DNA of 64,000 bases from Candidatus Poribacteria bacterium (GCA_022824265.1 JAJEAG010000043.1:1-64000); one strand, 5' to 3'. Positions 555 to 22,921 are shown, counted from the first letter of the stretch. Notes: generated from the letters alone by a model not told the origin. Numbers and translations are program-made.

Positions 555-617
555 AACCTACGGAGATATTAGTGTTGATTTACCGAACTCACGTTATAAT
601 ATCCAAGGACATATAGA

Positions 618-1196
618 TTAGAATCCTTCTGGATATAGTATTTTGACATTCCCCTCTTTTATTGAATCTTTGAATAGTTCTATTATTTCATCCTGACTGC
701 TATCTGGATTGTCATAAGAGATACGTAGATAATCTATGATGATTTCATCATAAGCACCGATAAAGTCAAAGTAAGATTTTGCTAAAGTTTTATCAAGAAA
801 TTGTGTTTGGTGTGTATTATAGAAGTTTAGGTATCTATTTGCTACTTCTTCATCAAGTTCACCAGCCTGAAATTTCTCTATTTGTATTTCTTCCCAAATA
901 AAGACCAATTGCTGCCAGTATTCTTTTTCAAAACCGAGTTCATCTTGGAAAATTTCTTCAGCGGCTGCGAATAGGACAGAAAAATCACCATCTTCTTCAG
1001 CCTGTTGGTAAACTGCATCTCTTATATCATTTACTTTCTGCATTGCCTGCTGTGCTTTTTCTAAGGATGTCGGTTCCTTCTCTTCAGGTTCAACAACTAC
1101 GATTTCGTCATCTATTAATTTTTCAACTACATTATATTCGCTGCAACCGAAGATAAATAAAGATGTTATTATTGTTACTAACACTATAAATTTCAT
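618..1196 (-). CDS. hypothetical lipoprotein
   Basis: This encodes a 192-residue protein of unrecognised family. It begins with a short basic start, a hydrophobic stretch and a cysteine at about residue 18 (LFIFGC), which fits a lipoprotein signal peptide. The mature part is very acidic and mostly helical by composition (runs of Glu around residues 25-45). No catalytic motif is seen. Two adjacent ATG codons exist; the second (1196) sits 6 nt after AAGGAG and is preferred. It stands alone, with DUF58 upstream on the same strand but 129 nt away. The likely location is the inner face of the outer membrane or the periplasm. Confidence 0.7.
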   Translation of the reverse strand: MKFIVLVTIITSLFIFGCSEYNVVEKLIDDEIVVVEPEEKEPTSLEKAQQAMQKVNDIRDAVYQQAEEDGDFSVLFAAAEEIFQDELGFEKEYWQQLVFIWEEIQIEKFQAGELDEEVANRYLNFYNTHQTQFLDKTLAKSYFDFIGAYDEIIIDYLRISYDNPDSSQDEIIELFKDSIKEGNVKILYPEGF

Positions 1197-1324
1197 CATA
1201 TACTCCTTATTTCAAATGTCATATATATACATTTGAATTTAATCAATTTGTTTTTGTTTAACGTGTTGCTGTATTTATAGTTTACAAATTGGAATATAGA
1301 GTCTATTTAATTCAGTGATAGTTG

Positions 1325-2212
1325 TTATCTCCGTGAAAGATATTCTGATAAGGCATGGTCAAAGGGTGTGGTTGTATCCATCTGCACGTAGTCTATTTGG
1401 CTTGCCCCACATCCGCGACGGTAGTTTTGAATAAAGGAGTTGAGATTCTCAAGATATGCCTCTTTCAGCGAATTTGCTTGTGTTGAAAGCGTTTGTCCTG
1501 TTTCCATATCACGAAAAACGACTGAACCGTTATATGGAAAGGTAAGTTCTGCATGATCGAGTAGATGGAAGACAATCACCTCATGTTTTTGGTGACGGAG
1601 GTGTTTAAGTGCGGAGATGACATTTGTTGGTTCATCAAGTAAATCTGAAATAACTATAACTAACCCACGTCTTACTATTCTTTTTGCAAGTTCATGGAAT
1701 AGGCTGCTCAATTCGGTTTCTTCACCGGGTGTAGCATTTTCTAATGCTGACATGATTGCCCGTAGGTGTGTTGCAGCCCCTCTTGGTGGTATGTATTGGT
1801 TAATGTCGGTATCAAAAAGTGCCAAACCTACAGAGTCCCGTTGCTTAAGCATGAGATAGGTTAGCGATGCAGCAAGATAACACCCGTATTCAAACTTTGT
1901 CAATGTGTCATCTTTATGTTTATAGTTCATGGATGCGCTTGTATCAAGTAGAATATAGGCACGTAGGTTCGTTTCCTCTTCATATTTTTTGACATAAAAT
2001 CGGTCGGATTTACCATAAACTTTCCAGTCAATATAACGGATTTCATCACCTGGCATATATTGTCGGTGTTCAGCAAATTCAACGCTAAATCCTTGATATG
2101 GACTTTTGTGTAATCCAGTTACAAACCCTTCAACAACAAGTCTGGCAACGAGCTCCATACCACCGATTCGAGTAAGTGCTAACGGGTCAAGATATTTATG
2201 AGATGTTTGCAT
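1325..2212 (-). CDS. DUF58 domain protein (vWA-like)
   Basis: This is a 295-residue protein with the DUF58 signature. It has an N-terminal segment with an ARLVVEGF core, then HRQYMPGDEIRYIDWKVY and the von Willebrand A-like strand LLDTSASMNY, a DxSxS metal-site form. It continues through a Rossmann-like core with VIVISDLLDE. Family members usually partner a MoxR AAA+ ATPase and act in envelope or metal-centre maturation. No moxR or BatA/BatB-type gene is adjacent here, so the partner must be elsewhere. There is no signal peptide, so it is probably cytoplasmic. The start at 2212 follows a weak AAGGAA. Confidence 0.88.
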   Translation of the reverse strand: MQTSHKYLDPLALTRIGGMELVARLVVEGFVTGLHKSPYQGFSVEFAEHRQYMPGDEIRYIDWKVYGKSDRFYVKKYEEETNLRAYILLDTSASMNYKHKDDTLTKFEYGCYLAASLTYLMLKQRDSVGLALFDTDINQYIPPRGAATHLRAIMSALENATPGEETELSSLFHELAKRIVRRGLVIVISDLLDEPTNVISALKHLRHQKHEVIVFHLLDHAELTFPYNGSVVFRDMETGQTLSTQANSLKEAYLENLNSFIQNYRRGCGASQIDYVQMDTTTPFDHALSEYLSRR

Positions 2213-2522
2213 GATATTCCTTCATTAATTTTTACATAACAGCAACTGACAAGGGTTGTTTCGGTAATGAATATGCATGTGAACAAAGTAGTCACAATGG
2301 GATGTGTATAATTGAATTGTTTCCAATTATAACAAAAGACCTTCTGTATATCAAGTAAATTGAACACAAAAGCGTGCAACTATTAGCTGATTTTATCGTA
2401 TTATATTTATTGGAAAACAGATAAAACCTTACGGATTTTTTCTACATATACTAATGTCTTAGCCTATTTCCATAGGCATACAATCATTCACAATATTACT
2501 GATTAATATGGAGCATGTATCA
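2213..2522. other. intergenic region between divergent genes, nothing specific
   Basis: This 310-bp AT-rich gap separates the DUF58 gene (minus strand) from the first VOC gene (plus strand). It must hold divergent promoters, but I see no near-consensus -35/-10 pair, no long hairpin and no plausible small gene. Confidence 0.5.
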
Positions 2523-2906
2523 ATGGGTAATCCTGTGACATACTTCGAAATTGCAGCTAAAAACGGTAAAGAGTTATGCAATTTCTACAGTACCGTCTTT
2601 GGTTGGAAAATTGAACAATTACCTGGTGGCGATCAAGGTATTTACTCATACGGTATTGAACCACAGTCAGAAGACGGAATAGGTGGACACATTTTTGTGT
2701 TGCCTGAGTTTTTTGACTTCCCAAATCAAGTCACTTTTTACATTAAGGTAGACAATTTACAAACATATCTACAAAAGGTGGAAAGTCTTGGTGGTCATAC
2801 CCTTATACCGCCTCAGCAAATCCCCGGTAACAGAGGGTCATTCGCATGGTTCGTAGACCCAAGCGGTAACTGCCTTGGCTTATACCGTCAACCAGATTCG
2901 CAATAA
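2523..2906 (+). CDS. VOC/glyoxalase-fold protein, paralogue 1
   Basis: This is a single-module VOC (vicinal oxygen chelate) protein of about 127 residues, of the lactoylglutathione-lyase-related type (COG3324-like). It opens NPVTYFEIAAKN and has FYSTVFGWKIE, a central VTFYIKVDNL strand and the closing FVDPSGNCLGLY. An upstream ATG at 2508 is in frame. I chose 2523 because GGAG lies 9 nt before it and because MGNPV matches the MANPV/MSNPV starts of the three neighbouring paralogues. The position normally holding the first metal ligand is Tyr rather than His/Gln, so metal-dependent catalysis is doubtful. The substrate is unknown. A terminator follows at 2960-2996. Confidence 0.85.
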   Translation: MGNPVTYFEIAAKNGKELCNFYSTVFGWKIEQLPGGDQGIYSYGIEPQSEDGIGGHIFVLPEFFDFPNQVTFYIKVDNLQTYLQKVESLGGHTLIPPQQIPGNRGSFAWFVDPSGNCLGLYRQPDSQ

Positions 2907-2959
2907 TATAGTTCTATATTCCTCTTGTGATAATAATAGGAAACTCAGAGGTTAGATGA

Positions 2960-2996
2960 ACAGGGTGATGAACCGTATATCATCACTCTGTTTTTA
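2960..2996 (+). terminator. intrinsic terminator after VOC paralogue 1
   Basis: The stem AACAGGGTGATGA (2960-2972) pairs with TCATCACTCTGTT (2981-2993) with one non-Watson-Crick position and an 8-nt loop, followed by a T-run. It separates the first VOC gene from the second. Confidence 0.8.
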
Positions 2997-3029
2997 TATG
3001 TTTAAAAAAACTATAAGGAGAAAATACAA

Positions 3030-3386
3030 ATGGCAAATCCAGTCACGATATTTGAAATAGCAGGTAAAAAAGAAGATTCATTGTGTGATTTCTACGGTTC
3101 ATTGTTCGGTTGGGATATAGTTCAGGACGAGGATCGCGGTAATTCTGTAAATACTGGGTCAGATCAAGGGATTCAAGGACACATTGTTCAAACAACGGAA
3201 GAAATGCCAATTACAAATCATGTAACTTTCTATATACAGGTAGATGATATTAACGCATCTGCAAAGAAAGTAGAAAATAACGGTGGCAAGATAATAATGG
3301 GACCCATGCCTGTACCAGAAGGTGAAGGCACATTTGCTATGTTCCTCGATCCAAGCGGGAACTGTCTTGGTTTATTTCAGTCTTAA
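3030..3386 (+). CDS. VOC/glyoxalase-fold protein, paralogue 2
   Basis: This 118-residue VOC protein is paralogous to its neighbours. It starts MANPVTIFEIAGKK, has FYGSLFGWDI, the middle strand VTFYIQVDDI and the closing FLDPSGNCLGLF. The start follows AAGGAG with good spacing. The first-strand metal-ligand position is Ile, so the usual VOC His/Gln ligand is absent. It could be a ligand-binding protein rather than a metalloenzyme, as in some bleomycin-resistance-type members. Only 43 nt separate it from paralogue 3, so the two are probably cotranscribed. Confidence 0.85.
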   Translation: MANPVTIFEIAGKKEDSLCDFYGSLFGWDIVQDEDRGNSVNTGSDQGIQGHIVQTTEEMPITNHVTFYIQVDDINASAKKVENNGGKIIMGPMPVPEGEGTFAMFLDPSGNCLGLFQS

Positions 3387-3429
3387 CGGAATTTCTATAG
3401 TAGTTTGATACATTATGGAAGGTAAATGG

Positions 3430-3795
3430 ATGAGCAATCCAGTAGTGCATTTTGAAATTGGTGGAAAGGACATTGAAAAACTGATTGAATTTTACCGTTC
3501 AGTTTTTGAGTGGGGTATTTCTCCGTTAACTGATGATTTATATATTGCAGACCCAAGATCTACGGAAGGTATAGAAGGTCATTTATTTGAGATTAACTCT
3601 GATGACGACTTTTCTAATCTGGTGCTCATTTATGTTCAGGTTGAGGACATTTGGGAATGCCTGAATCAAGCGGAGAATCTTGGTGGAAAAATAATCATAC
3701 AACCCCAGGAAATACCGGGAAATGCAAGCCATTATGCTTTGTTCAATGATCCATGTGGTAATTCCATCGGTTTATTGCAGAGAAGGTTGTCTTAG
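3430..3795 (+). CDS. VOC/glyoxalase-fold protein, paralogue 3
   Basis: This is a VOC-fold protein of about 121 residues. The start MSNPVVHFEIGGKD is chosen at 3430, with GGAAGG 7 nt upstream; an in-frame ATG at 3415 would add EGKW and break the match to the paralogues. Of the four copies, this one keeps His at the first ligand position (VVHFEI). The rest is more divergent: FEWGIS replaces FGWxx, and FNDPCGNSIGLL closes the fold. It sits 43 nt after paralogue 2. The substrate is not predictable. Confidence 0.85.
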   Translation: MSNPVVHFEIGGKDIEKLIEFYRSVFEWGISPLTDDLYIADPRSTEGIEGHLFEINSDDDFSNLVLIYVQVEDIWECLNQAENLGGKIIIQPQEIPGNASHYALFNDPCGNSIGLLQRRLS

Positions 3796-3867
3796 AAGGA
3801 AATCTATTCAAGATAGGTCAAAGGAGTAATTTATAGTGAACTTTAGAATTAACAGGACATTTGAGTT

Positions 3868-3895
3868 GTAGTCGGGAATCGGAGTTCCCTCCTAC
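3868..3895. repeat. REP-like hairpin
   Basis: GTAG-TC-GGGAA-TCGGAG-TTCCC-TC-CTAC forms a 9-bp stem with a symmetrical TC/TC internal loop. It lies in the gap between VOC paralogues 3 and 4. There is no U-tract, so it looks more like a dispersed palindrome than a terminator. Confidence 0.55.
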
Positions 3896-4082
3896 CTTTA
3901 AGATCGTCATGTATCAAAAAATTGCGGTATTCAAACTCAAACGAAGTGAACAGGTGAAATATAAATATATCGATTGTTAACTAACACAACACGTTACTGT
4001 ACTATGCTTAATATATCAATCTACTTGAAAGTTAACCAAATCAATCCAATATTAAATATCAATACATACGGAGTAATTTACT

Positions 4083-4439
4083 ATGTCAAATCCTGTCATG
4101 TGGTTTGAAATTGCTGGTAAGAACGCCGGAGAATTATGTGAATTCTATAGTTCAATTTTTGGTTGGGAAGTATCACCTGAATCTAACGGTGTACATTTGT
4201 GTGAACCATCACCTAATGAGGGAATTAAGGGACATATATTCCCTACATCTGATGATATGCCAACAACAAATCATGTCACTCTATATATTTCTGTTGATGA
4301 CCTTGAAGCATCTGTAGCGAAGGTTGAGAATAAAGGTGGAAAGATCGTCATACCACCACAGGAAATTCCGGGAGGTATGGGTTCGTTTGCGTGGATTCTT
4401 GATCCAAGCGGTAATTTGATTGGATTACACAAATCATAG
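4083..4439 (+). CDS. VOC/glyoxalase-fold protein, paralogue 4
   Basis: This 118-residue protein is the fourth member of the tandem array. It opens MSNPVMWFEIAGKN and has FYSSIFGWEV, HVTLYISVDDL and ILDPSGNLIGLH. CGGAG precedes the ATG at a suitable distance. It is most like paralogue 2 (DDMPTTNHVT versus EEMPITNHVT), suggesting recent duplication. The first metal-ligand position is Trp. It is transcribed convergently with metH and separated from it by a bidirectional hairpin at 4484-4515. Confidence 0.85.
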   Translation: MSNPVMWFEIAGKNAGELCEFYSSIFGWEVSPESNGVHLCEPSPNEGIKGHIFPTSDDMPTTNHVTLYISVDDLEASVAKVENKGGKIVIPPQEIPGGMGSFAWILDPSGNLIGLHKS

Positions 4440-4483
4440 ATCTAACACAACTGTTGATAAATTACTATATCAGAGAACAACTG

Positions 4484-4515
4484 AACAGGATAGTGGATCA
4501 ATCCACTATCCTGTT
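4484..4515. terminator. bidirectional terminator between VOC4 and metH
   Basis: AACAGGATAGTGGAT (4484-4498) is followed after 2 nt by its exact reverse complement (4501-4515). It lies between two convergent genes, with short T-rich sequence on the plus side, which fits a shared terminator. Confidence 0.75.
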
Positions 4516-4546
4516 TCTGTTAAAATACATAGATTCGTACCAAATA

Positions 4547-7500
4547 TTATTTTAGTAAGGGTTTTAACCACCGTTTTGCAGTTTTCAGTTCCATTCCTGT
4601 CCTATCAGCATAATCCTTTAATTGATCCTCTCCAATTCTGGCAATACTGAAATACTTAGAATCGGGATGTGAATAGTACCACCCACTCACAGATGCAGCG
4701 GGAAACATAGCGAGATTCTCGGTCAATTCAATACCAGTATTTTCTGTTGCATTTAACAGATTAAACAAGATACATTTCTGAGTATGATCTGGACAGGCTG
4801 GATATCCTGGAGCAGGACGAATACCTTGATATTTCTCAGAGATCAATGCATCATTATCAAGATTTTCGTTTGATGCATAACCCCATAGTGTTGTACGGAT
4901 ATATTGATGCATGTGTTCTGCAAATGCTTCTGCCAATCGGTCTGCTAATGCTTTCGTCATGATGCTGTTGTAATCATTGTGTTGTTTTTCATACTCTGTG
5001 CAGAGTTCAGATACACCAAATCCTGTAGAGACTGCAAAAGCCCCGATATAATCATGGAGAGATGTTGCTTTCGGTGCGATGAAATCTCCAAGACTTAGAT
5101 TCGGTCTGGAGAATGGTTGTTCAGTTTGTTGTCGTAGATGGTACAACGTCGCCACCTTTTCTGTCCTATTCTCGTCTTTATATATATGTGTATCTTCACC
5201 GACACCATTTGCAGGGAATATACCCACAACAGCACGTGCTTTGATTTTTTTATTTAGGATAATGTCATTCAGAAGAGTCTTACCATCATCAAGAAGTTCG
5301 TGGACTTTTTCTCCTATTTCTGGATTATCCAATATATTTGGATATTTCCCAGATAAACCCCATGTAATAAAGAATGGTGTCCAATCAATATAGTCAATAA
5401 GTTCAGTCAAAGGATAATCGTCAAAGACTTGGATGCCAGTGATATTAGGTTTAGGTGGTAGATAATTTTTCCAGTCTGTTGTGAATTTTCTTTGTTGAGC
5501 GACATCTATAGATAACAGTCTTGCGTGTTTCTTGTTTTTTGACCGACGAACACGGATCTCTTCATATTCCTCGCGTGTTTGTTCTACTAACTGATGTTGG
5601 CTTTCACTACTCATCAGATTGCTAACAACTCCGACACTACGGGAAGCGTCTTTGACGTGTATCGTAGGTCCATTATATGCTGGTTCAATCTGAATAGCGG
5701 TATGTACCTTAGATGTTGTTGCGCCGCCGATAAGAAGTGGAATTTTGAAACCTTCACGTTCCATCTCTTCAGCGACGTACACCATCTCATCAAGGGATGG
5801 TGTAATAAGACCGCTTAACCCTATCATATCAGCATTTTCATTCCGTGCTGTTGTTAAAATATCTTCTGCAGGAACCATCACGCCAAGGTCTACTACATCA
5901 TAATTATTACATCCTAATACTACTCCGACTATATTTTTTCCAATATCATGAACGTCGCCTTTTACTGTCGCCATAACAATCTTACCTCTTGATTGAATAG
6001 CACCATCAACTTGTTCTTGTTCTATAAACGGAATCAGATGTGCAACAGCCTTTTTCATCACTTGCGCGCTTTTAATTACTTGTGGAAGGAACATCTTTCC
6101 ATCCCCAAATAGATCTCCGACCCGATCCATCCCATCCATTAATGGACCTTCAATAACTTCTATTGGACGTTCGTAGTTGAGACGCGCTTCTTCTGTGTCT
6201 TCTTCAATATATTGGATTATTCCTTCAACAAGCGCATGGCTGATTCGCTGTTCAACAGGTAATTTTCTCCATTCCTTGTCTACAACCTTCTTTTTTCTTT
6301 TTCCATGTATAGTGTTAGCAAGTTCAAGAAGTTGATCTGTAGCATCATTACGTCGATTGAATAGGACATCTTCAACTGCTTCTAATAGTGTCTTGGGTAT
6401 ATCATCATAGACAGCGAGTTGTCCGGCGTTGACAATTCCCATACCCATTCCCGCGTTAATTGCGTGATATAGAAATGCAGCATGCATTGCCTCTCGAACG
6501 GTATCGTTGCCACGGAATGCAAAAGAAATATTACTTACACCGCCACTGACTAACGTATATTCACATGTTGACTTTATCTCTTTACAAGAATTAATAAAAG
6601 CTAACGCATATTCGTTGTGTTCTTCTATTCCCGTCGCGACAGCAAAGATATTCGGATCGAAGATAATATCTTCTGGTGGAAATCCAATCTTTTCCGTTAG
6701 GAGTTTGTATGCTCTTTGACAGATCTCAATTTTTCGTTCATAGGTATCGGCTTGTCCTTTTTCGTCAAATGCCATGACGATTACAGCTGCACCGTATTTT
6801 CTGATAAGACGTGCCTTTTCTAAAAAATCCTCTTCTCCCTCTTTTAGACTTATTGAGTTGACAACACCTTTACCTTGTATGCATTCTAATCCAGCTTCAA
6901 TTACTTCCCACTTGCTGGAATCTACCATGATAGGTACGCGACTAATATCTGGTTCAGCAGCGATTAGATTTATGAACTGGACCATTGCGGTTTTTGCATC
7001 TAATAGACCTTCATCCATGTTAATATCTATAATTTGCGCACCATTTTCCACCTGATCGCGTGCTACCTCCAATGCGGTCTCATAATCCTCATTTTTGATA
7101 AGTGTAGCAAATCGACGAGAACCCGAAACATTAGTTCGTTCACCTACGTTAACAAACAGAGAGTCTGGTGTAATATTGAAAGACTCTAAACCGCTTAGAC
7201 GGCAGGCACGTTCTTGTGGTTCAGGTTGTCGTGGCGGATATTCTGCTGCGACCTTCGCAACTGTTTCTATATGTTCAGGTTGGCTACCACAACAACCACC
7301 AACGATATTAACAAAGCCGTTCTGTGCAAATTCGTGTATCCAATTTCCCATTTCTTCAGGTGTCTGCGTATAATGTCCAAGTTCATCAGGAAGACCGGCA
7401 TTCGGATAACAGATTATTGGTATATCTGCAAGTTTTGCCATCTCTGCTAAATAGGGTCGTATCTGTTGTGAACCGAATCCGCAATTTAATCCTACAGCGA

Positions 7501-10342: not shown

Positions 10343-11086
10343 TTGAAACGTTTATATTTCATGATTGTATTTCTATGTCTATGTTTTGTGAATATTGGCT
10401 ACACTTATACGGTAGATGAAGTATTCATGAATTTCAAAACTGCGTACAGTAAGTGTAATAACTTCAGCGCAGATTTTGAAGAGACGACACTATATAAAAC
10501 CAGAAAAAGTGTAAGCCGGGGTAGATTTACATTCGGAAAACCCAATTTGCTGAATATGAAATATGTCTCCCCAAGAGACGCGAGCAAGATTGTAAAAACG
10601 ATCGTTTTGGATGGTGAATACGCTTGGTCTTATACACCAATCCTCAATGAAGTCAACAAACAAAAGTTGCATAATTCCCATCGACGTGAAATCCTTCCGG
10701 GTACGGGTGAATCTCTTGAGGATTTATCCAACAACTGGAATATGAAGTTAGTACCTGACGAAGCTGCAAACACTAAAGGTATATATCAAATACAACTTAC
10801 ACCAAAACCGAAACTATTAAACAGAAATATTGAGGATAATCAGGTAGGTAAAGATATAAAAAAAAAGAAGGATAATGGAGGTGTTAAGGAGTTACTTGAA
10901 ATTTGGGTGAATAAAAGTGAATGGTTTCCTGTTCAATTCGGTTATGTGACTGTATACGAGGATGGAAGTCGTCGTAATGTTGTGATGAGGTTATCTAATA
11001 TAGAACGAGATAAGAAGTTATCACCGGATAAGTTCAAGTTTGTTATTCCTAAAGATGCGGAGATAATTGATCTTTCAGAAAATTAA
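10343..11086 (+). CDS. lolA: outer-membrane lipoprotein carrier LolA
   Basis: This 247-residue secreted protein carries lipoproteins across the periplasm from the inner-membrane LolCDE releasing complex to the outer membrane. A signal peptide occupies about residues 1-22. The mature part shows the LolA pattern: FSADFEETT, then a GRFTFGKPNLLNMKY strand pair and TIVLDGEYAWSYTP. It is longer than E. coli LolA (about 200 residues) because of a Lys-rich insert near residues 165-180. The start is TTG (10343) after GGGAGA. It heads a run with pgsA, thpR and recA (gaps 4, 39 and 13 nt). It implies a diderm envelope. Confidence 0.85.
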   Translation: MKRLYFMIVFLCLCFVNIGYTYTVDEVFMNFKTAYSKCNNFSADFEETTLYKTRKSVSRGRFTFGKPNLLNMKYVSPRDASKIVKTIVLDGEYAWSYTPILNEVNKQKLHNSHRREILPGTGESLEDLSNNWNMKLVPDEAANTKGIYQIQLTPKPKLLNRNIEDNQVGKDIKKKKDNGGVKELLEIWVNKSEWFPVQFGYVTVYEDGSRRNVVMRLSNIERDKKLSPDKFKFVIPKDAEIIDLSEN

Positions 11087-12300: not shown

Positions 12301-13458
12301 ATGGCAAAAGACGAGCAGAAAAAGTTGGAAAAAGATTTGAACACTGAAGATACAAAAATATCCGAAGATAAAAAGAAGGCAGTAGATCAAGCCATCTCTC
12401 AAGTAGAACGTGCTTATGGCAAAGGTGCGATTATGCGGCTTACTGACAACGAAGTTGTTCCTGTAGAAGCAATCCCTACTGGTGCTCTTTCTCTTGATAT
12501 GGCGTTAGGTGTTGGAGGTGTGCCACGAGGAAGAATAATTGAAATCTTTGGTCATGAAGGAACTGGTAAAACCACGTTAGCCTTACACATCGTTGCTGAA
12601 GCACAGAAAATGGGTGGTATTGCAGCATTTATTGATGTTGAGCACGCCTTGGATACAACTTATGCACGAAATATCGGGGTAAATCTTGAAAACTTGCTAA
12701 TTTCTCAGCCAGATGCAGGTGAACAAGCCTTAGAAATTGTGGAAACGCTTATCCGCAGCGGTGCGATTGATGTTGTAATTATCGACTCAGTTGCAGCATT
12801 AACACCCCAAGCTGAAGTTGAAGGTGAAATGGGCGATGCCCATGTCGGCTTATTACCGCGTCTGATGTCTAAAGCATTAAGAAAACTATCAGGGGTAACA
12901 AATAAATCGCAGACATGTGTCATTTTCACGAATCAAATTCGTCAGAAAATCGGTGTGATGTTCGGTAATCCGGACACGACTCCGGGCGGTCTTGCATTGA
13001 AGTTTCACGCATCTGTCCGGTTAGAAATTCGTCGAGCTACACAAATCAAAGAAGGTACAGATATACTTGGTAACAGAGTGCGTATAAAGGTTGTAAAAAA
13101 TAAGGTTGCGCCACCTTTCAGAGAAGCGGAATTTGATGTTACTTTTGGTAAAGGAATCTCTAAAGAAGGCACATTATTGGATATCGCTGTTGAGGCAGGT
13201 TTTATAGAAAAAAGAGGATCATGGTTCTCATATAACAATGAGAGAATTGGTCAGGGTAGAAATAATGTGAAAGCGTATTTGCAGGAGAATCCAGAAGTCA
13301 CTGCAGAACTCGACAGAAAAATCAGAGAAAACATGGGTTCACTCTCAGACTCTGTTGCAGGAGCAATTCCAGGTGTTGAAGAAGACGAAGAAGGTGTTGA
13401 TACTGGATTTGAGGACACCACTGAAACACCTACGAGTTATGACGATGATGACAATTAG
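12301..13458 (+). CDS. recA: recombinase RecA
   Basis: This 385-residue RecA, the ATP-dependent DNA strand-exchange protein and SOS co-protease, has Walker A GHEGTGKT at residues 84-91 (E. coli 66-73, GPESSGKT). Its Walker B is [10 protein letters not shown], the L2 loop region reads [16 protein letters not shown], and the [14 protein letters not shown] block is intact. It has an N-terminal Lys/Glu-rich extension of about 18 residues and an acidic C-terminal tail ([14 protein letters not shown]). No intein is present. I saw no LexA-type operator just upstream; it is probably expressed with the lolA-pgsA-thpR run. Confidence 0.98.
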
Positions 13459-13563
13459 AGAGAAAGTTATATAATCTTTTATAGTTCAACATCTTTATCC
13501 AATACAAAGTAATATAGTAATCCTATTATTGAATTGATTCGTTCAAGGTTACCATGTTTTTTC

Positions 13564-13592
13564 TTGATGTATATATTTCAACATGTTATACT
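13564..13592 (+). promoter_or_regulatory. candidate promoter for the proteasome operon
   Basis: TTGATG (13564-13569), a 17-nt spacer and TATACT (13587-13592) lie 84 nt before the mpa start in the 218-bp gap after recA. This is the most consensus-like pair in the gap. Confidence 0.45.
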
Positions 13593-13676
13593 TTTAGGCA
13601 CTAAGTTTGTTATATTTAACTGACAGACATTCTACCATACCATCAATCTTTTCAATGGAAAGTGAGAATAATTTGT

Positions 13677-15473
13677 ATGGCAAGCAAAAGAGACACTTCA
13701 ACAGAGTTATTGAAAAGTTCTGATATTGAGGAAACTGCATCAGATGCGGCAAATTATCCTCAACGGATTCGTGAGTTGAACTGGCAGATAGAAATGCTTG
13801 AGAACGAAGTCAGCGATTTGCGCAGACAACTCAGCACTGCCCCTAACGATGATGTTGATGCACGTCTATACGAAATGACGCGAGAACTTATGCAGTCGCA
13901 CCGTCAAAACCGAAAACTTAGAAATACCCTTCAAGAAGCGAAGGAAAAACTTGAACTACTAAAAGAAAAGGTTAAGCAGCTCAGTGCCCCTCCCAATAAC
14001 TACGGCATTTTCCTCGGCGTAAATGATGACAACACAATTGATGTTGACATCGGTGGAAAAAAATGGCGTGTCAATCACGATCCATCCTTAAATCCCAATC
14101 AAATACAAGTTGGACAAGAAGTCATAGTAAATAGTGGCTTAAATGTCGTTGCGATCAAACCACCAGAAAAACACGGGGATGTTGTTAAGATTAAAGAAGT
14201 ATTGGAATCTGATCGTGCGGTTGTTAGTTTACGGACAGATGAGGAACAAGTTGTACGTATCTCAGAGGCATTAAGAGATGAAGAGTTGAAAATAGGTGAT
14301 CCTGTTCTACTAAATCACACCAGCGGCATGCTCCTTGAAAAACTTCCAAAACGTGAACTTGATGACTTGCTACTTGAAGAAGTACCAGATATAAGTTATG
14401 CTGACATTGGCGGATTGGACTCACAGATTGAAGCAATACGTGATGCTATTGAGATGCCATATCTTTATCCAGATGAATATCGCGAATTTGATCTTACACC
14501 ACCAAAAGGAGTATTGCTCTATGGTCCACCAGGTTGTGGTAAGACTTTAATCGCAAGAGCAGTGGCAAATTGCCTTGCAGAACGGATTCGACAACAAAAC
14601 GATAGAGATGATGTTAAAGGTTATTTCATAAATATTAAGGGACCTGAACTTCTTAACAAATATGTCGGTGAGACTGAGCGAAAAATACGAGAAGTTTTTC
14701 AAAAAGCACGTGATAAATCCAAAGAAGGATTCCCAGTAGTCATTTTCTTTGATGAAATGGATTCACTGTTTAGGTCGCGTGGCATGGGAATATCATCAGA
14801 TATGGAGTCTACCCTTGTGCCACAGTTCCTCTCAATGCTTGATGGTGTTGAAGACTTAAGAGATGTCATCGTTATTGGTGCAAGCAATAGACAAGATCTT
14901 TTGGACCCTGCTGTTTTGAGACCTGGACGACTTGATGTGAAGATTAAAATAGATCGTCCGAGTATGGATGGAGCCAAGGATATATTTTCTATCTATCTAA
15001 CCCCGGATCTTCCATTTGCCAAGGCGGAAGTAGAGAAATTTGATAGTAATACAGATGACATAACTGAACACCTTATCTCTGAAGCGGTTCAAGCAATGTA
15101 TGCTACAACTGAAGAAAATCGTTTCATAGAAGTGACTTACACGCGTGGTGAACGTGAGACTCTCTTCTTCAAAGATTTCGTAAGTGGTGCAATGATTAGG
15201 AACATAGTTTCACGAGCAAAAAAGATGGCGATTAAGCGTCTTATCAGTTCAGAAGGAAAAGAAAAAGGTATATCACTTGATGACCTTAAAACCGCTATCC
15301 GTGAAGAATATCGTGAAAATGAGGACCTCCCAAATACAACAAATCCAGATGATTGGGCAAAAATCTCTGGCAGGAAAGGTGAGAAAATCGTTAATATCCG
15401 AGCCTTGATAAATGAACCTGAGACACGAAGGAATCCTGAAATGCGGATCAGCAAGGGTGGGACATATCTCTAA
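13677..15473 (+). CDS. mpa: proteasome-activating AAA+ ATPase (Mpa/ARC)
   Basis: This is the hexameric unfoldase that recruits pupylated proteins and feeds them into the 20S proteasome. It has about 598 residues from the ATG at 13677; an in-frame GTG at 13662 exists but its upstream SD is too close. An N-terminal coiled coil (about 25-105) binds Pup, and two OB-fold domains follow (about 110-235). The AAA+ module has DIGGLDSQI, Walker A GPPGCGKT (from residue 283) and Walker B VVIFFDEMDS (Asp359). The C-terminus is GGTYL, close to the GQYL tail that opens the mycobacterial proteasome gate. It is first in the cluster, 36 nt before dop. Confidence 0.96.
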   Translation: MASKRDTSTELLKSSDIEETASDAANYPQRIRELNWQIEMLENEVSDLRRQLSTAPNDDVDARLYEMTRELMQSHRQNRKLRNTLQEAKEKLELLKEKVKQLSAPPNNYGIFLGVNDDNTIDVDIGGKKWRVNHDPSLNPNQIQVGQEVIVNSGLNVVAIKPPEKHGDVVKIKEVLESDRAVVSLRTDEEQVVRISEALRDEELKIGDPVLLNHTSGMLLEKLPKRELDDLLLEEVPDISYADIGGLDSQIEAIRDAIEMPYLYPDEYREFDLTPPKGVLLYGPPGCGKTLIARAVANCLAERIRQQNDRDDVKGYFINIKGPELLNKYVGETERKIREVFQKARDKSKEGFPVVIFFDEMDSLFRSRGMGISSDMESTLVPQFLSMLDGVEDLRDVIVIGASNRQDLLDPAVLRPGRLDVKIKIDRPSMDGAKDIFSIYLTPDLPFAKAEVEKFDSNTDDITEHLISEAVQAMYATTEENRFIEVTYTRGERETLFFKDFVSGAMIRNIVSRAKKMAIKRLISSEGKEKGISLDDLKTAIREEYRENEDLPNTTNPDDWAKISGRKGEKIVNIRALINEPETRRNPEMRISKGGTYL

Positions 15474-15509
15474 GAATGTAATTCCACTTGCTACATTTTA
15501 AAATAAATA

Positions 15510-16994
15510 ATGGCAGTACCAACAATAATCGGCACTGAAACTGAGTTCGGAATCTCAGTCAAAAATGCACGAGAGCAAGATCTCGTAGCAGCATCAACAT
15601 TGGTTGTAAACGCTTATAATAGTCGTAATTTACCAACGATTTTGTGGGACTATGCACAAGAAAGTCCATTGATGGATGCGCGTGGTTTTACAGTTGATGG
15701 TGAAAATCCGCCTTCAGATGATGCAAATAACAGTGTCATAAACGATATTTTGATAAATGGTGGAAGATACTATGTTGATCACGCACATCCCGAATATTGT
15801 ACACCTGAATGTACAAATGCGCGAGACTTGGTAAAATATGAAAAAGCTGGTGAACTTATCTTGGAACTAAGCCGTCTCGCTGCTGAACAACTACTATTGG
15901 ATAATCAAGAAATAATTATATACAAAAACAATACTGATTATAAGGGACATAGTTACGGATCGCATGAAAATTATTTGATGTCTCGTAAAATTCCTTTTAC
16001 TGATATTGTTAATGGATTAACACCGTTTCTCGTAACTCGTCAAATTTTTACGGGAAGTGGGAAGGTAGGTGCAGAAAACGGAGCCGAGGATACCGATTTC
16101 CAGATATCGCAGCGAGCAGATTTTTTTGAAAAAGAGGTTGGTCTTAGCACGATGGTTGAACGTCCGATAATCAACACTCGTGATGAACCGCACGCTGATT
16201 CAAAATTATACCGTCGTCTACATGTTATCGTTGGTGATTCTAATATGTCGGAATTCACGATTTACTTGAAAGTCGGAATCACATCCATCATCCTACAATT
16301 AATTGAGAAAGGTGTTGTTGGTAGCCAATTTGCTTTACAAGATCCGGTTGCAGTGATAAAATCAGTATCACGAGATTTAGATTGTAGAAACAAGTATTCC
16401 CTGAAAGATGATCGCAATTGGACGGCTATTGAGATACAACAGGCATATCTGGAACTTGCACATAAACACCTGTCACCTGAAGAAAGGACACCTGTAGTAG
16501 AGGATCTATTGGACAAATGGGAATATGTCTTAACCAACATGAAATCTGATCCTATGAGTATGGGACAGCATATAGATTGGGTTATTAAGAAAAGACTTAT
16601 TGATGCATATATTGATAGACACGCATTTAAATGGACGGACGCACGTGTTCGGATGCTTGATCTTCAGTATCATGACCTACGTCCTGAAAAAGGACTTTAT
16701 GCTCGATTGCTCAAGAATGGACATGTAGAACGTTTGTTATCTCAAGAGGAGGTGGTGCATGCAATTCAGCATCCTCCTTTAGATACACGGGCATATTTTA
16801 GAGGCACTTGTTTACGAAAATATCCGAATAGCATCCATAGTGTAAGTTGGAATTCAATAGTTTTCAATGGACCTACAGGTTTCGATAAAATCATGATGGA
16901 ACGTCCACATTTTGGCACACAAGAAATAATCGGTGAATTATTGAATTCATGTACCGTTGATGAACTCGTCAACCAAATTCGTACTGATGGTTAA
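15510..16994 (+). CDS. dop: Pup deamidase/depupylase Dop
   Basis: This 494-residue member of the carboxylate-amine-ligase-like Dop/PafA family hydrolyses the C-terminal Gln of Pup to Glu and can also remove Pup from substrates. It starts PTIIGTETEFGISV. It carries the Dop-specific segment STLVVNAY...WDYAQESPLMDARGF that PafA lacks, plus the shared blocks HPEYCTPEC, YKNNTDYKGHSYGSHENY and NTRDEPHAD with metal- and ATP-binding residues. It is longer than PafA (453 residues), as expected. A weak GGGG-TTA-CCCC hairpin lies at 17011-17021, between dop and pup. Confidence 0.96.
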   Translation: MAVPTIIGTETEFGISVKNAREQDLVAASTLVVNAYNSRNLPTILWDYAQESPLMDARGFTVDGENPPSDDANNSVINDILINGGRYYVDHAHPEYCTPECTNARDLVKYEKAGELILELSRLAAEQLLLDNQEIIIYKNNTDYKGHSYGSHENYLMSRKIPFTDIVNGLTPFLVTRQIFTGSGKVGAENGAEDTDFQISQRADFFEKEVGLSTMVERPIINTRDEPHADSKLYRRLHVIVGDSNMSEFTIYLKVGITSIILQLIEKGVVGSQFALQDPVAVIKSVSRDLDCRNKYSLKDDRNWTAIEIQQAYLELAHKHLSPEERTPVVEDLLDKWEYVLTNMKSDPMSMGQHIDWVIKKRLIDAYIDRHAFKWTDARVRMLDLQYHDLRPEKGLYARLLKNGHVERLLSQEEVVHAIQHPPLDTRAYFRGTCLRKYPNSIHSVSWNSIVFNGPTGFDKIMMERPHFGTQEIIGELLNSCTVDELVNQIRTDG

Positions 16995-17090
16995 TTGTCT
17001 TGTTGATAAAGGGGTTACCCCCGATGGAATTATGTTAGTCTATATAAGTTTGCGGATTAGACGTAAACTACATATTTAAAGGAGTACAAC

Positions 17091-17288
17091 ATGCCACGCG
17101 AAAAACAGCAAGAATACAGAGATCACCCCATCAATGAAAATGAGGAGATCCAACCCAATTCCGAGATAAATGACAACGTTGATGATTTGACAGAGGATTT
17201 AGACGCACTTCTCGATGAAATCGATGAGATTTTAGAAGAAGATTCCGAGGAATTCGTTGAAAACTTTATCCAACGTGGAGGTCAATAG
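17091..17288 (+). CDS. pup: prokaryotic ubiquitin-like protein Pup
   Basis: This 65-residue, highly acidic and probably disordered protein is covalently attached to lysines to mark proteins for the proteasome. It has the family layout: polar N-terminus (MPREKQQEYRD), a central region with DDLTEDLDALLDEIDEILEE that should form the helix bound by the Mpa coiled coil, and the C-terminus ENFIQRGGQ. Because it ends in GGQ rather than GGE, Dop must deamidate it before PafA can ligate it. The SD AAAGGAG precedes the ATG. The stop is 2 nt from the prcB start. Confidence 0.96.
   Translation: MPREKQQEYRDHPINENEEIQPNSEINDNVDDLTEDLDALLDEIDEILEEDSEEFVENFIQRGGQ
17277..17281 (+). promoter_or_regulatory. 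SD of prcB embedded in the GGQ codons of pup
   Basis: GGAGG is formed by the two Gly codons (gga ggt) of the Pup C-terminus, 9 nt before the TTG start of prcB. The bases encoding the essential GG thus also serve as the ribosome site of the next gene, suggesting translational coupling of pup and prcB. Confidence 0.7.
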
Positions 17289-17290
17289 GA

Positions 17291-18082
17291 TTGATCAAAC
17301 CCCATGACTATGGAACAACCGATTTTCTACAAATTCTGAAAAATCGTGCTCCAGAAAGTGTTGCTGACTGGGACCGATTCAACGGGATGCGGGAGAACTT
17401 TCCACACAATTTTTTGGAAGGGACTACTGTGCTAGCACTCGTCTATGATACGGGTGTAATTATTGCAGGTGACCGTCAAGCAACTGAAGGATATCAAGTT
17501 GGGGAAAGACGTATTCAGAAAGTGTTTAAAGTCGATAGACATTCTGCAATAGCAATCGCGGGTGTTGCAGGACCTTGTTTTGAAACTGCCAAGTTATTCC
17601 AAGTTCAAGTGGAGTTCTACGAAAAAATGGAAGGAACTTCTTTAAGTTTGGATGGACAAGCAAATTATCTTTCAAACCTTGTCAGAACAAACTTAGGTTT
17701 AGCTATGCAAGGTTTAGTTGTCCTTCCTCTATTTGCAGGTTATGACTTGAGACAGCGGAAAGGACGGATATTTAAATATGATGTGCTTGGTGGACGTTAC
17801 GAGGAAGATTCCTATTATGCCATCGGTTCTGGTGGAAAAGATGCAAGGACTACCCTCAAAAAGTTATTTCAACCAGATATGTCACAAGAATCCGCTTTAA
17901 AGGCAGTAATTGAGTCATTATGGGATGCTGCAGACGAGGATATCGCTACCGGTGGTCCCGATCTGATTAGGAAAATCTTTCCTACTTTGACAGTTATCAC
18001 TGAAGAAGGTGTATCTGATGTTTCAGAGGAAACTGTTGAAGATATGTTCCATGAATTAGTTTCACGTTTAGAACAAAAGTAA
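17291..18082 (+). CDS. prcB: proteasome beta subunit (catalytic)
   Basis: This 263-residue precursor is the catalytic subunit of the 20S core. A propeptide of 44 residues ends in LEG, and the mature enzyme begins TTVLALVYDTGV, making Thr45 the N-terminal nucleophile. The downstream blocks GVIIAGDRQATEG (with the catalytic Asp) and a later YYAIGSGG loop fit the beta family. The start codon is TTG at 17291, using an SD inside pup. It is followed after 36 nt by prcA. A self-processing Ntn-hydrolase is expected; seven beta subunits per ring. Confidence 0.96.
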   Translation: MIKPHDYGTTDFLQILKNRAPESVADWDRFNGMRENFPHNFLEGTTVLALVYDTGVIIAGDRQATEGYQVGERRIQKVFKVDRHSAIAIAGVAGPCFETAKLFQVQVEFYEKMEGTSLSLDGQANYLSNLVRTNLGLAMQGLVVLPLFAGYDLRQRKGRIFKYDVLGGRYEEDSYYAIGSGGKDARTTLKKLFQPDMSQESALKAVIESLWDAADEDIATGGPDLIRKIFPTLTVITEEGVSDVSEETVEDMFHELVSRLEQK

Positions 18083-18118
18083 GACTGTATTCATTTAGTT
18101 TTAATTATTGAGGGATAA

Positions 18119-18829
18119 ATGTCAACGCCATATTACGTTTCACCCGATCAAATTTGGGAAGATAAAAAAGTCTTTGTTGATCGTGGTATTGAACAAGCAA
18201 AGGAAGTGGTTGTTTTAGAGTATAACAATGGTCTTCTGATGGTAGCCGAGAACCCCAGAAGAACAATATTCAAGATTTCTGAAATATACGACAGAATTGC
18301 GCTTGCTTCTACTGGACGTGTTTCAGAATATGAGACACTTCGAGTTGCAGGTATTCGTGAAGCAGAGGTTAAAGGGTATACCTATTACCGTGAAGATGTT
18401 ACTGGGAAATGGTTGACAAACCTATACTCACAACACATGAGTGCAATTGCACAAGGATGGGATGTAAAACCGCTTGAGATTGAACTTCTTGTTTGTGAAG
18501 TGGATAGTAGTCCCGGCGTAAGCAGCCAGATTTATAAGATTACATTTGATGGCACCTATGAGGAAAGTGAAAAATTTGCTGTAATCGGTGGTAGGGCAGA
18601 TGCTATCACCCAGAAACTAAACGATGAATACACAGAAGGTTTGGAATTAGCAGATGCTTTGCAGCTTGCATCGCGTGCATTTGAATCTATAGAGGTAGAA
18701 GAATCGGAACCGTATCAGATAACTCCAGAGACAATAGAAGTTAGTTGTCTTGATGTAACTTCTGGACGACGTAAATTTCGTCGGTTTTCAGTTGAAGAGA
18801 TAGCAGAGATATTTAATCATGCATCGTAG
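18119..18829 (+). CDS. prcA: proteasome alpha subunit
   Basis: This 236-residue alpha subunit forms the outer, gating rings of the 20S core. The N-terminus MSTPYYVSPDQ resembles PrcA of Mycobacterium, whose first residues close the pore. Family blocks EVVVLEYNNGLLMVAENP and KISEIYDRIALASTGRVSE follow. No nucleophilic Thr is generated, as expected for alpha. GAGG precedes the ATG. The last 11 nt overlap the start of pafA. Confidence 0.95.
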   Translation: MSTPYYVSPDQIWEDKKVFVDRGIEQAKEVVVLEYNNGLLMVAENPRRTIFKISEIYDRIALASTGRVSEYETLRVAGIREAEVKGYTYYREDVTGKWLTNLYSQHMSAIAQGWDVKPLEIELLVCEVDSSPGVSSQIYKITFDGTYEESEKFAVIGGRADAITQKLNDEYTEGLELADALQLASRAFESIEVEESEPYQITPETIEVSCLDVTSGRRKFRRFSVEEIAEIFNHAS

Positions 18830-20180
18830 AATATACGGATTGGAAACCGAATACGGGATTATCTGTACCCCAGACAAAAACAAGGGTAAGAAACTCACTG
18901 TTCAGAATGTTGTAATGTATCTGTTTCGTGAAATTATATCTGGTCGGATGTACCCTGATGTATTTCTTGAAAACGGAGCAAGGTTTTATCAAGACATTGG
19001 CTGCCATCCTGAATACGCGACCCCAGAATGTGATGATGTCATTGAACTGGTAGCACACGATAAAGCTGGAGAACGTATTGTCACTCGGCTTGCAACAACA
19101 GCTGAACGGAGAATGCGTGTTGATGGTTTTCGTGGAAAAATCTCTATCTTTAAAAACAACTTAGATACCGTAGGGAATACCTACGGTTGCCATGAAAACT
19201 ATCTTATGGAGCGCGAAAAAGTTAGTTTTCGGCAGTTAGCATCACAACTCATTCCTTTTTTTGTTACCAGACAAATTTATACTGGCGCGGGAAAAATAAA
19301 ACGAAGCGACCAAGGTTTCTATGAGATTTCCCAACGCGCACAACACATCCGAGAAGAAATATCCATCGCTACTACTACCGCACGCGGGATTATCAATACT
19401 CGCGATGAGCCCCATGCTGACAGAGAAAAATATAGACGACTACACGTCATTGTAGGTGATTCCAATATGTCCGAATTTTCAACCTTCTTGAAAGTTGGAA
19501 CAACTGGTATCATTCTCCGTATGATTGAGGACCATTTTATAACTGAACGTTTTGCTCTACGTAACTCGGTACAAGCCATACACGAAATTTCTGAGGATAT
19601 TTCTTGTAAACGTCTTATTGAACTTGAAAACGGGAAACGATTATCTGCAATAGAACTTCAATGGCAATACTTCGAATGTGCAAAACGTTATCTTGAAACT
19701 GTAGAATCTGACCCAACGACTGACGAGGTAATGGCACGTTGGGAATACGTTATGACATGTCTTGAAGAAGATCCAATGCAATTGGAACGTGAACTTGACT
19801 GGGTCATTAAGCGAAAATGGATAGAAGCTTATGTAAAACACCGTTCCCTTGACTGGAATTCCGCAGAAGTAAGACGTTTGGATTTGGAATACCATAATAT
19901 CCGTCAGGATACCAGCGTATATTATAAAGCAGAAAAACGTGGATTAACTGAAAGAATTTTGGACGACACGCAGATTCGTCGTGCAATGCATTCACCACCA
20001 GAAAGGACAAGGGCAAAGTTTCGTGGAAGATTTATCAAACTTGTAAATAATGGGAAAATCCTTTGTGGTGTAAATTGGAGTTATATCCAACTATATGAAC
20101 CATATCAGAAACTCTATCTATCAACAGACCCGCTTGAACCTGAATTTGAAGAAGCGAGTCGTATGATTTATTCGATATAA
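18819..20180 (+). CDS. pafA: Pup-protein ligase PafA
   Basis: This 453-residue ligase uses ATP to phosphorylate the C-terminal Glu of Pup and then forms an isopeptide bond with substrate lysines. It starts MHRRIYGLETEYGIIC, essentially the PafA signature, and has the ligase-like order HPEYATPECDD, FKNNLDTVGNTYGCHENY and NTRDEPHADREKYRRLHV. It lacks the extra Dop loop, which distinguishes it from the 15.5-kb paralogue. It overlaps prcA by 11 nt, so the two are translationally coupled. It closes the cluster; a new promoter-like sequence follows at 20181. Confidence 0.96.
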   Translation: MHRRIYGLETEYGIICTPDKNKGKKLTVQNVVMYLFREIISGRMYPDVFLENGARFYQDIGCHPEYATPECDDVIELVAHDKAGERIVTRLATTAERRMRVDGFRGKISIFKNNLDTVGNTYGCHENYLMEREKVSFRQLASQLIPFFVTRQIYTGAGKIKRSDQGFYEISQRAQHIREEISIATTTARGIINTRDEPHADREKYRRLHVIVGDSNMSEFSTFLKVGTTGIILRMIEDHFITERFALRNSVQAIHEISEDISCKRLIELENGKRLSAIELQWQYFECAKRYLETVESDPTTDEVMARWEYVMTCLEEDPMQLERELDWVIKRKWIEAYVKHRSLDWNSAEVRRLDLEYHNIRQDTSVYYKAEKRGLTERILDDTQIRRAMHSPPERTRAKFRGRFIKLVNNGKILCGVNWSYIQLYEPYQKLYLSTDPLEPEFEEASRMIYSI

Positions 20181-20287: not shown

Positions 20288-22921
20288 ATGACACAACCGA
20301 AATATGTTTACTTCTTTGGAGCTGGTGAAGGGGAAGGTGATGCTTCCATGAAACTCTTACTCGGTGGTAAGGGAGCAAACCTATCTGAGATGACAAATCT
20401 CGGCATTCCAGTACCGCCAGGATTTACGATCTCCACTGAAGTATGCAAATTTTATTATGATAATGAGAAGAAATACCCTCACGGACTTGACCAACAGATT
20501 ACTGAAAATCTACAGAAATTAGAAGATTCCCTGGATGAAAAATTCGGAGATACGGAAAACCCTCTACTTGTTTCCGTACGTTCTGGTGCTGCTGTTTCAA
20601 TGCCTGGGATGATGGATACAATTCTGAACCTCGGTCTAAATGACGATGCAGTCAAAGGATTAATTACAAAATCTGGTAATGAGCGTTTTTCCTACGATGC
20701 ATACCGTCGGTTTGTTCAGATGTTCGGAAATGTAGTATTACGTGTTGACCATGACGAATTTGAACATCTGCTTGAAGAAAAGAAAAATAATAAAGGTGTT
20801 ACCTTAGATACGGAATTGGAAGCATCAGACCTATTAGAACTCGTCAAGGAATTCAAGCATGTTATCAAGCAGAAAACAGGGAGCGACTTTCCTGATGAAC
20901 CACGTCGTCAACTGGATATGGCTCGTGACGCTGTATTTGAATCTTCTGGAAATCCACGCGCAATCACCTACCGCCGTATAAATGATATTTCGGAAGAGCT
21001 GGGACGCACTGCTGTCAATATACAAGCAATGGTATTTGGTAATATGGGAGGGAGTTCTGGTACAGGTGTTGCTTTTTCCCGCAACCCGTCAACAGGTGCG
21101 AACCAATTCTATGGTGAATTTTTGATGAATGCACAAGGAGAAGATGTTGTTGCTGGTATTCGAACTCCGTTGCCAATATCTGAATTGAGAAATATCAATC
21201 CAGATGCGTATGATGAATTAGTTGCTATCGGATTGAAATTAGAGACACACTATAAGGACATGCAGGATGTGGAGTTTACAATTCAGGATGGAACTCTCTA
21301 CATGCTACAAACACGGAACGGAAAACGTACAGGACAAGCAGCAGTTCGCATCGCTGTTGAGATGGTTGAAGAAGGTTTGATTGATAAAGAAACTGCTTTG
21401 ACGCGTGTCCCTGCTAACGATCTTGACCAGTTATTGCATCCGAGTGTTGACCCTGGTGCTTCGGTCGAAGTAATTGCACAAGGATTACCTGCATCACCTG
21501 GCGCAGCGGTCGGTAAAGTTGTGTTCACGGCAATTCGTGCAGAAGAACTTGCAGCTGAAGGGGAAAAAGTTATTCTTGTCAGATCAGAAACTTCACCAGA
21601 AGATATTGGTGGAATGGATGCAGCTGAAGGTATTTTGACCGCACGTGGTGGTATGACAAGTCACGCGGCTGTTGTTGCACGCGGTATGGGAAAATGTTGT
21701 GTTGCAGGATGTTCTAATCTTTTTATAAATGAAGAAGCATTAGAATTTATCGTTGGTGGAAAACGTTATGGCGAAGGTGATTTTATTACGCTCAACGGTT
21801 CAACTGGAGATGTTCTAAACGGTCAGGTATCTCTAATACAGCCAGAACTCAGTGGACAATTCGGTATTCTAATGGAATGGGCTGATGAAGTCCGAACACT
21901 GGACATTAGAACTAATGCAGACACACCAGAAGATGCGAAAAATGCCCGGGGATTCGGTGCAGAAGGTATAGGACTCTGCAGGACTGAACATATGTTCTTT
22001 GGAACAGGAATTGATGCAGTCAGAGAGATGATACTTGCGGATGACACGTTTGAACGTAAGCAAGCTTTGACAAAACTACTTTCCCATCAACGTTCAGATT
22101 TCATCGGTATTTTTGAGGCTATGGCTGGATATCCAGTTACCATTCGCACACTTGATCCGCCATTACATGAGTTTTTGCCCAAAAACGAGTCTGAAATCTC
22201 TGATCTTGCAGAAAGAATTAATGTTGATGTACAAAAACTACGTGAGCGCGTAGAGGAGTTGCATGAATTCAATCCTATGCTTGGACATCGCGGATGTAGA
22301 CTCGGTATTGTATATCCGGAAATTACAGAGATGCAAGCACGCGCAATCTTTGAAGCTGCTGTAGATGTCGCAAAACGCGGTATCAAAGTGTTACCAGAGA
22401 TTATGATACCACTCGTCGGACATATCAACGAATTCTCATTGCAACGTAAGGTTGTTGATGATATTGCGAAAGAGGTCTTTAATGAAACTGGTACACGTGT
22501 TGAATATCTGATCGGAACGATGATTGAGCTACCCCGCGCAGCACTTACTGCTGACAAAATCGCAGCTGAAGCTGAATTCTTCTCCTACGGCACAAATGAC
22601 CTTACCCAAACGACATTCGGTATGAGTCGTGATGATGCAGTGAAATTCCTTGACGATTATGTCAAAAATGGTATTCTCGAATACGATCCGTTCCAAGTCT
22701 TAGACCAAGAAGGTGTTGGCAGCCTATTACAGATTGGTTGTGAAAAAGGTAGAGCGGCACGACCTGATTTGAAAGTTGGTATCTGTGGTGAACATGGAGG
22801 AGAACCACATTCTGTGAAGTTCTGCTACGGATTAGACTTCAATTATGTTTCTTGTTCACCATTCCGTGTGCCAATCGCTCGTTTGGCAGCAGCACAGGCT
22901 GTTATTGAAGCAAAGTCTTAG
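20288..22921 (+). CDS. ppdK: pyruvate, phosphate dikinase
   Basis: This 877-residue enzyme interconverts pyruvate, ATP and phosphate with PEP, AMP and pyrophosphate. The N-terminal nucleotide-binding domain has LLGGKGANLSEM. The central swivelling phosphohistidine domain has GGMTSHAAVVARG, with His459 matching the phosphorylated His455 of the Clostridium symbiosum enzyme. The C-terminal PEP-utilising barrel has GIGLCRTEHMFF and the closing GICGEHGG. Length equals the family standard. GGAGG-like sequence precedes the ATG. A strong hairpin follows the stop. Confidence 0.97.
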   Translation: MTQPKYVYFFGAGEGEGDASMKLLLGGKGANLSEMTNLGIPVPPGFTISTEVCKFYYDNEKKYPHGLDQQITENLQKLEDSLDEKFGDTENPLLVSVRSGAAVSMPGMMDTILNLGLNDDAVKGLITKSGNERFSYDAYRRFVQMFGNVVLRVDHDEFEHLLEEKKNNKGVTLDTELEASDLLELVKEFKHVIKQKTGSDFPDEPRRQLDMARDAVFESSGNPRAITYRRINDISEELGRTAVNIQAMVFGNMGGSSGTGVAFSRNPSTGANQFYGEFLMNAQGEDVVAGIRTPLPISELRNINPDAYDELVAIGLKLETHYKDMQDVEFTIQDGTLYMLQTRNGKRTGQAAVRIAVEMVEEGLIDKETALTRVPANDLDQLLHPSVDPGASVEVIAQGLPASPGAAVGKVVFTAIRAEELAAEGEKVILVRSETSPEDIGGMDAAEGILTARGGMTSHAAVVARGMGKCCVAGCSNLFINEEALEFIVGGKRYGEGDFITLNGSTGDVLNGQVSLIQPELSGQFGILMEWADEVRTLDIRTNADTPEDAKNARGFGAEGIGLCRTEHMFFGTGIDAVREMILADDTFERKQALTKLLSHQRSDFIGIFEAMAGYPVTIRTLDPPLHEFLPKNESEISDLAERINVDVQKLRERVEELHEFNPMLGHRGCRLGIVYPEITEMQARAIFEAAVDVAKRGIKVLPEIMIPLVGHINEFSLQRKVVDDIAKEVFNETGTRVEYLIGTMIELPRAALTADKIAAEAEFFSYGTNDLTQTTFGMSRDDAVKFLDDYVKNGILEYDPFQVLDQEGVGSLLQIGCEKGRAARPDLKVGICGEHGGEPHSVKFCYGLDFNYVSCSPFRVPIARLAAAQAVIEAKS

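Follow-up and report, generated by a model that had tools for sequence, protein, structure and literature searches.

Candidatus Poribacteria very likely possess a functional Pup-proteasome of the mycobacterial kind together with a parallel UBact-proteasome, the two probably kept apart by chemistry and both ancestral to the main class of the phylum. This reading draws on gene content, catalytic residues, distribution, phylogenies, differences in charge and in tails, and the observed selection. Pup tagging is usually treated as a speciality of Actinobacteria and is known from tuberculosis bacteria. A whole uncultured, outer-membraned phylum keeps it too, nearly always beside a charge-inverted second tag.

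A complete Pup-proteasome locus in a diderm host

The window, the whole stretch of 64,000 nucleotides analysed here (GCA_022824265.1 JAJEAG010000043.1:1-64000), is a portion of a 77.6-kb contig from a poribacterial genome of 4.45 Mb that is 96.7% complete. Between positions 13677 and 20180 it carries six genes in the mycobacterial order (Table 1), all of them ORFs at the positions and on the strand that an earlier note on this sequence had assigned to them. By gene content, the locus is a complete Pup-proteasome of actinobacterial type. The best NCBIfam and Pfam family of each of the six proteins is the expected one, with scores far beyond chance; PafA falls slightly under its NCBIfam cut-off (551 bits) and this family is still its best. 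The nearest solved relatives of the six proteins are mycobacterial, rhodococcal, corynebacterial and Acidothermus components.

Table 1. Genes of the Pup locus, its neighbours in the window, and the UBact cluster on contig C49 (locus L032) of the same genome.
Feature	Product	Position	Strand	Length (aa)	Family matches
LolA-family gene	LolA family	window 10343-11086			below NCBIfam equivalog cut-off, above Pfam cut-off
recA	RecA	window 12301-13458	+		TIGR02012 537 bits
mpa/arc	proteasomal AAA+ ATPase	window 13677-15473	+	598	TIGR03689 704 bits (cut-off 505); PF17758/PF16450/PF00004
dop	Pup deamidase/depupylase	window 15510-16994	+	494	TIGR03688 563 bits (cut-off 492)
pup	prokaryotic ubiquitin-like protein	window 17091-17288	+	65	TIGR03687 52 bits (cut-off 41.45); PF05639 63.7 bits (cut-off 27)
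prcB	20S proteasome beta subunit	window 17291-18082	+	263	TIGR03690 288 bits (cut-off 192)
prcA	20S proteasome alpha subunit	window 18119-18829	+	236	TIGR03691 234 bits (cut-off 139)
pafA	Pup ligase	window 18819-20180	+	453	PF03136 505 bits; TIGR03686 519 bits
PPDK	pyruvate, phosphate dikinase	window 20288-22921	+		TIGR01828 1362 bits
pafA2		L032 593-2053	-		
prcA2		L032 2096-2884	-		
prcB2		L032 2863-3744	-		
UBact	UBact tag	L032 3744-3941	-	65	NF033388 75.6 bits (cut-off 35); PF20513 67.6 (cut-off 27.8)
dop2		L032 3999-5516	-		
mpa2		L032 5577-7403	-		

The catalytic residues of the pathway are in place. Mpa has an N-terminal coiled coil, OB domains, an AAA domain and a C-terminal docking tail with an aromatic-Leu end, -GGTYL (nearest solved structure M. 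tuberculosis Mpa 7px9, E 8e-174); an alternative in-frame GTG start is possible at 13662. Dop carries the Dop-loop motif and the catalytic Asp (YYVDHAHPEY; nearest solved Dop 5lrt/4b0r, E about 2e-140), and the catalytic Asp of PafA lies within RFYQDIGCHPEYATPEC (C. glutamicum PafA 4b0t, E 3e-98). In PrcB, a propeptide precedes the catalytic Thr (EG/TTVLAL), and Thr1 aligns with that of Rhodococcus PrcB 2h6j (E 2e-70). PrcA has the docking-pocket Lys (FKISEIYDR; M. tuberculosis PrcA 3h6f, E 2e-47). Pup ends in GGQ and aligns with M. tuberculosis Pup (7px9_G, E 2e-8); its C-terminal half is acidic and helical, and structure prediction gives one C-terminal helix (residues 24-61) with modest confidence. 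The start codon of prcB is a TTG, nine bases downstream of a GGAGG, and prcA and pafA share an overlap of 11 nt. The earlier note had picked out this start codon and overlap and the ends of Pup and Mpa, all of which are seen in the sequence. Its description of Pup as a short, very acidic variant has to be dropped: the length is close to the 69 positions of the Pfam Pup model, and the acidity is normal.

The host was likewise correctly taken to be a diderm outside the Actinobacteria. A diderm envelope is supported by the LolA-family gene, about 2.6 kb from the locus as first described, and by six Omp85 matches in other parts of the genome. The genes for RecA and PPDK flank the locus as context rather than as components. 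The order lolA-pgsA-thpR-recA-(mpa-dop-pup-prcB-prcA-pafA)-PPDK is repeated across poribacterial families, with the recA-mpa adjacency kept across families f1-f3 and the PPDK adjacency at 13 of the 21 loci examined. A comparison of conserved neighbourhoods returned no cluster members besides the six genes and these known neighbours. The linkage of recA to mpa (window 12301-13677) may indicate a tie to the DNA-damage response. The G+C content of the locus (0.38-0.41) is in line with that of the flanking DNA. Because the block recurs across families and on single-contig chromosomes, a contaminating contig or a chimeric join of unrelated genomes, the objection that the earlier note had raised against itself, is excluded.

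A second, UBact-type proteasome in the same genome

A search of the phylum for the Pup-ligase family gave four matches in nearly every genome, not two. A second complete proteasome cluster turned up on another contig of the genome to which the window belongs (minus strand, 593-7403; Table 1). Its tag ends in RTGE, in keeping with the R[TS]G[EQ] end of UBact, and its gene is adjoined by mpa2, dop2, prcB2, prcA2 and pafA2. In our trees, the proteins of this cluster group with UBact-type proteins of other phyla and not with the Pup-type. With UBact scoring above both family cut-offs and no partner gene missing, the cluster matches the UBact-proteasome system reportedly described by Lehmann et al. 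in 2017 (BBRC 483:946; cited in PMC12751074), and differs from that system as known in sharing its genome with a complete Pup system.

We found no solved UBact structure. A ubiquitin-like beta-grasp was considered and set aside, the predicted model (pTM 0.36, weak) having no strands, only a flexible N-terminal part and a pair of short helices towards the C-terminus. The model suggests that UBact, like Pup, would be a flexible tag with C-terminal helices.

Some UBact clusters depart from this layout. In four genomes of family f7 (G007, G008, G009 and G011; L094-L097), UBact-prcB2-prcA2-pafA2 occur without adjacent mpa2 and dop2, and two of these genomes (G008 and G011) have an extra Pup_ligase match on a separate contig. 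In G006, pafA2 (L093:10169-11436) is spread over several overlapping frames, by assembly error or gene decay, which may be why this genome gives nine Pup_ligase matches.

Distribution and selection

Pup was found in 78 of the 85 genomes of the phylum and UBact in 76, with both tags in 71. Six one-contig genomes (G023, G046, G080, G082, G083, G084) have both on the same contig, widely separated; one of them, G046, is from the same genus as the window's genome and measures 5,337,261 bases. A few genomes that are 90-96% complete keep one system alone (Pup in G025 and G004, UBact in G066), so neither is essential. Neither system is found in two genomes from other classes of the phylum, which are 88 and 91% complete. 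In most of the poribacterial group, two parallel ubiquitin-like routes of disposal thus seem to operate in each cell. That both systems go back to the ancestor of the main class, and have been retained since, is part of the best explanation.

The pairing extends to Nitrospirota (n = 148), where 66 genomes have Pup, 53 have UBact and 47 have both; all of the dual-tag genomes have at least three Pup_ligase genes, and nearly all have four. In the Nitrospira group (L243, L245, L247, L255 and others), pup is unlinked from dop1-prcBA-pafA1, the distance being about 50 kb in G269. An orphan Pup lacking its enzymes was ruled out there, dop1 and pafA1 being present away from pup. None of 35 genomes with UBact from Verrucomicrobiota, Armatimonadota, Latescibacterota and a few further phyla had Pup (four Nitrospirota were left out of this set). 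Scans of IMG/VR gave no virus-borne copies.

The functional residues are invariant in the proteins examined: the catalytic Asp is found in 154/154 Dop and PafA proteins, Thr1 in 91/91 PrcB (34/34 among the Pup-type) and the docking-pocket Lys in 86/86 PrcA. For the large subunits of the two systems, pairwise comparison gives NG86 omega values of about 0.02-0.12, close to those of recA and PPDK, with dS near saturation in some pairs and noisier estimates for the short tags. Both systems are under purifying selection, and are therefore both maintained.

Phylogeny and origin of the Pup cluster

The trees show a deep and strongly supported split between Pup-type and UBact-type proteins (Mpa 100/100, PrcB 100, PrcA 100, PafA/Dop 97). 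The separation is seen in all trees (Mpa, PafA with Dop, PrcB and PrcA) and rules out recent duplication as the source of the two poribacterial clusters. The check by phylogeny of PrcB, Mpa and PafA that had been called for places Poribacteria, Nitrospirota and Actinobacteria in separate Pup-type groups. In the Mpa tree these clades are supported at 99/98, 86/87 and 100/100, respectively, their branching order not being fixed by this tree. The nearest pair of phyla differs between the Dop and PafA trees, and the order varies between genes, with a thin actinobacterial sampling (PDB sequences plus Nonomuraea and Tsukamurella records).

These results weigh heavily against a recent transfer of the cluster from Actinobacteria, or its arrival on a contaminating contig, which we regard as very improbable. 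Such an event would account for the mycobacterial gene order and would suit the actinobacterial origin with later transfers proposed in PMC7947786. It is at odds with the presence of Pup in almost the whole phylum, with neighbours common to several families and on single-contig chromosomes, with a poribacterial Mpa clade apart from that of Actinobacteria, and with a G+C content like that of the surroundings. Inheritance of the Pup cluster within the poribacterial class is supported. The earlier note had left inheritance and transfer of an intact cluster side by side: the family-wide synteny and the distribution argue for inheritance inside Poribacteria, and the gene trees, differing in order, give no choice for the ancestor of the class. 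For that ancestor, acquisition of the Pup cluster by an ancient transfer from Actinobacteria or Nitrospirota, beside a native UBact system, is a tenable possibility, somewhat short of an even chance. It would fit the two genomes of other classes with neither system, and the Dop1 tree, in which poribacterial and nitrospirotal sequences come together (96, quick tree); the PafA and PrcB trees, drawn with few actinobacterial sequences, put Nitrospirota with Actinobacteria instead. Because the two groupings conflict, there is no consistent donor.

The Dop/PafA tree groups proteins by tag type and not by function, leaving tag-driven convergence or two ligase origins as possibilities. The free trees, in which PafA pairs with Dop by tag, would suggest an independent ligase origin for each system; since a constraint placing all PafA in one clade is not rejected (AU p = 0.218), we do not claim such origins.

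How two systems may coexist in one cell

The steps of the Pup pathway, as we infer them from the protein families, would begin with Dop deamidating Pup-GGQ to GGE, as needed before ligation, and PafA joining Pup-GGE to lysines of target proteins. The coiled coil of Mpa would bind the Pup helix, its -YL tail would dock on the PrcBA 20S chamber, and the target would be fed in; Dop could also take Pup off again. The UBact route would run in parallel, with a ligase, a depupylase-like enzyme, an ATPase and 20S subunits of its own. We also infer an absence of cross-talk and a division of labour between the two. Their separation would probably be chemical, a strongly acidic Pup tail with a near-neutral ligase being set against a basic UBact tail with a strongly acidic ligase, and the two ATPases, with different C-terminal tails, would each serve their own 20S particle.

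The differences in charge are large. The mean net charge of the last 30 residues in Poribacteria is -10.9 for Pup and +5.7 for UBact, and the two ranges do not overlap in any phylum tested. Taken over whole proteins and not over the binding groove, the mean ligase charges are +0.9 (PafA1) and -27.3 (PafA2), with PafA2 the more acidic in 17 of the 17 genomes with both; on the same measure Dop2 is more acidic than Dop1 in 16/16, by a moderate gap (-25 vs -15). The ATPases end in [YF][LF] in 33/33 Pup-type Mpa1 and in [VIA][VI] in 42 of 45 UBact-type Mpa2. The UBact-type has a conserved di-aliphatic -[VI][VI] end in place of the -YL docking tail, and three Nitrospirota sequences end in -IE. Because phyla with UBact alone show the same charge and tail traits, these predate coexistence and did not evolve because of it.

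Judged from the sequences, the differences in charge and tails make insulation of the two systems plausible. We lean, by a little, towards two orthogonal systems of ubiquitin-like tagging and proteasomal degradation in the same cytoplasm, in Poribacteria and many Nitrospirota. Tags and ligases of inverted charge, together with differing docking tails, would insulate the two systems, which would act on distinct substrate pools. Redundancy or cross-talk, with tags and substrates common to both ligases and ATPases and the pair kept as a back-up, seems unlikely. It would explain the near-complete genomes with one system, and Dop1 and Dop2 do share 42% identity and their catalytic residues. Against such cross-talk, the tags have oppositely charged tails and no sequence similarity to each other, PafA2 is the more acidic ligase in every genome, by about 28 charge units on average, and the ATPase tails differ. 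The poribacterial pairing offers a natural test case for how two homologous tag-ligase-protease pathways stay clear of cross-talk, and its tags and ligases would be an orthogonal pair testable in E. coli.

Relation to known systems

The poribacterial locus shares with the actinobacterial Pup-proteasome the six components and their order, the GGQ end, the -YL tail and the catalytic residues. It differs in its diderm host, in its recA and PPDK flanks and in the UBact system of the same genome; the Mpa of some relatives ends in -TFL, unlike the actinobacterial -YL. Transfer has been invoked to explain the Pup systems known outside Actinobacteria, most of them in Nitrospirae (PMC3511204, PMC7947786). 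The distribution in Poribacteria is relevant to the proposed origin of pupylation in Actinobacteria and its later spread. A 2012 report described two complete, sequence-divergent Pup clusters in Leptospirillum ferrooxidans, the second with a tag lacking GGE; in view of the present results, this second copy most likely represents a UBact system. That report concerned a single organism, whereas here the pairing is found throughout most of a phylum and in 47 of the 148 Nitrospirota genomes. Going by titles and abstracts, none of the eight open papers that mention both Poribacteria and a proteasome describes a proteasome in this phylum. Each system is of a known kind; their near-universal, ancestral pairing in Poribacteria appears to be new, though the 2017 UBact study may already mention co-occurrence with Pup.

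Farther along the window, a stretch of low G+C (37001-41211; 0.29-0.38) encodes two large TPR-repeat-like proteins. It is adjoined by a gene for a WD40-trypsin-like protein (34608-37142), and a transposase-like gene lies nearby (41488-42642).
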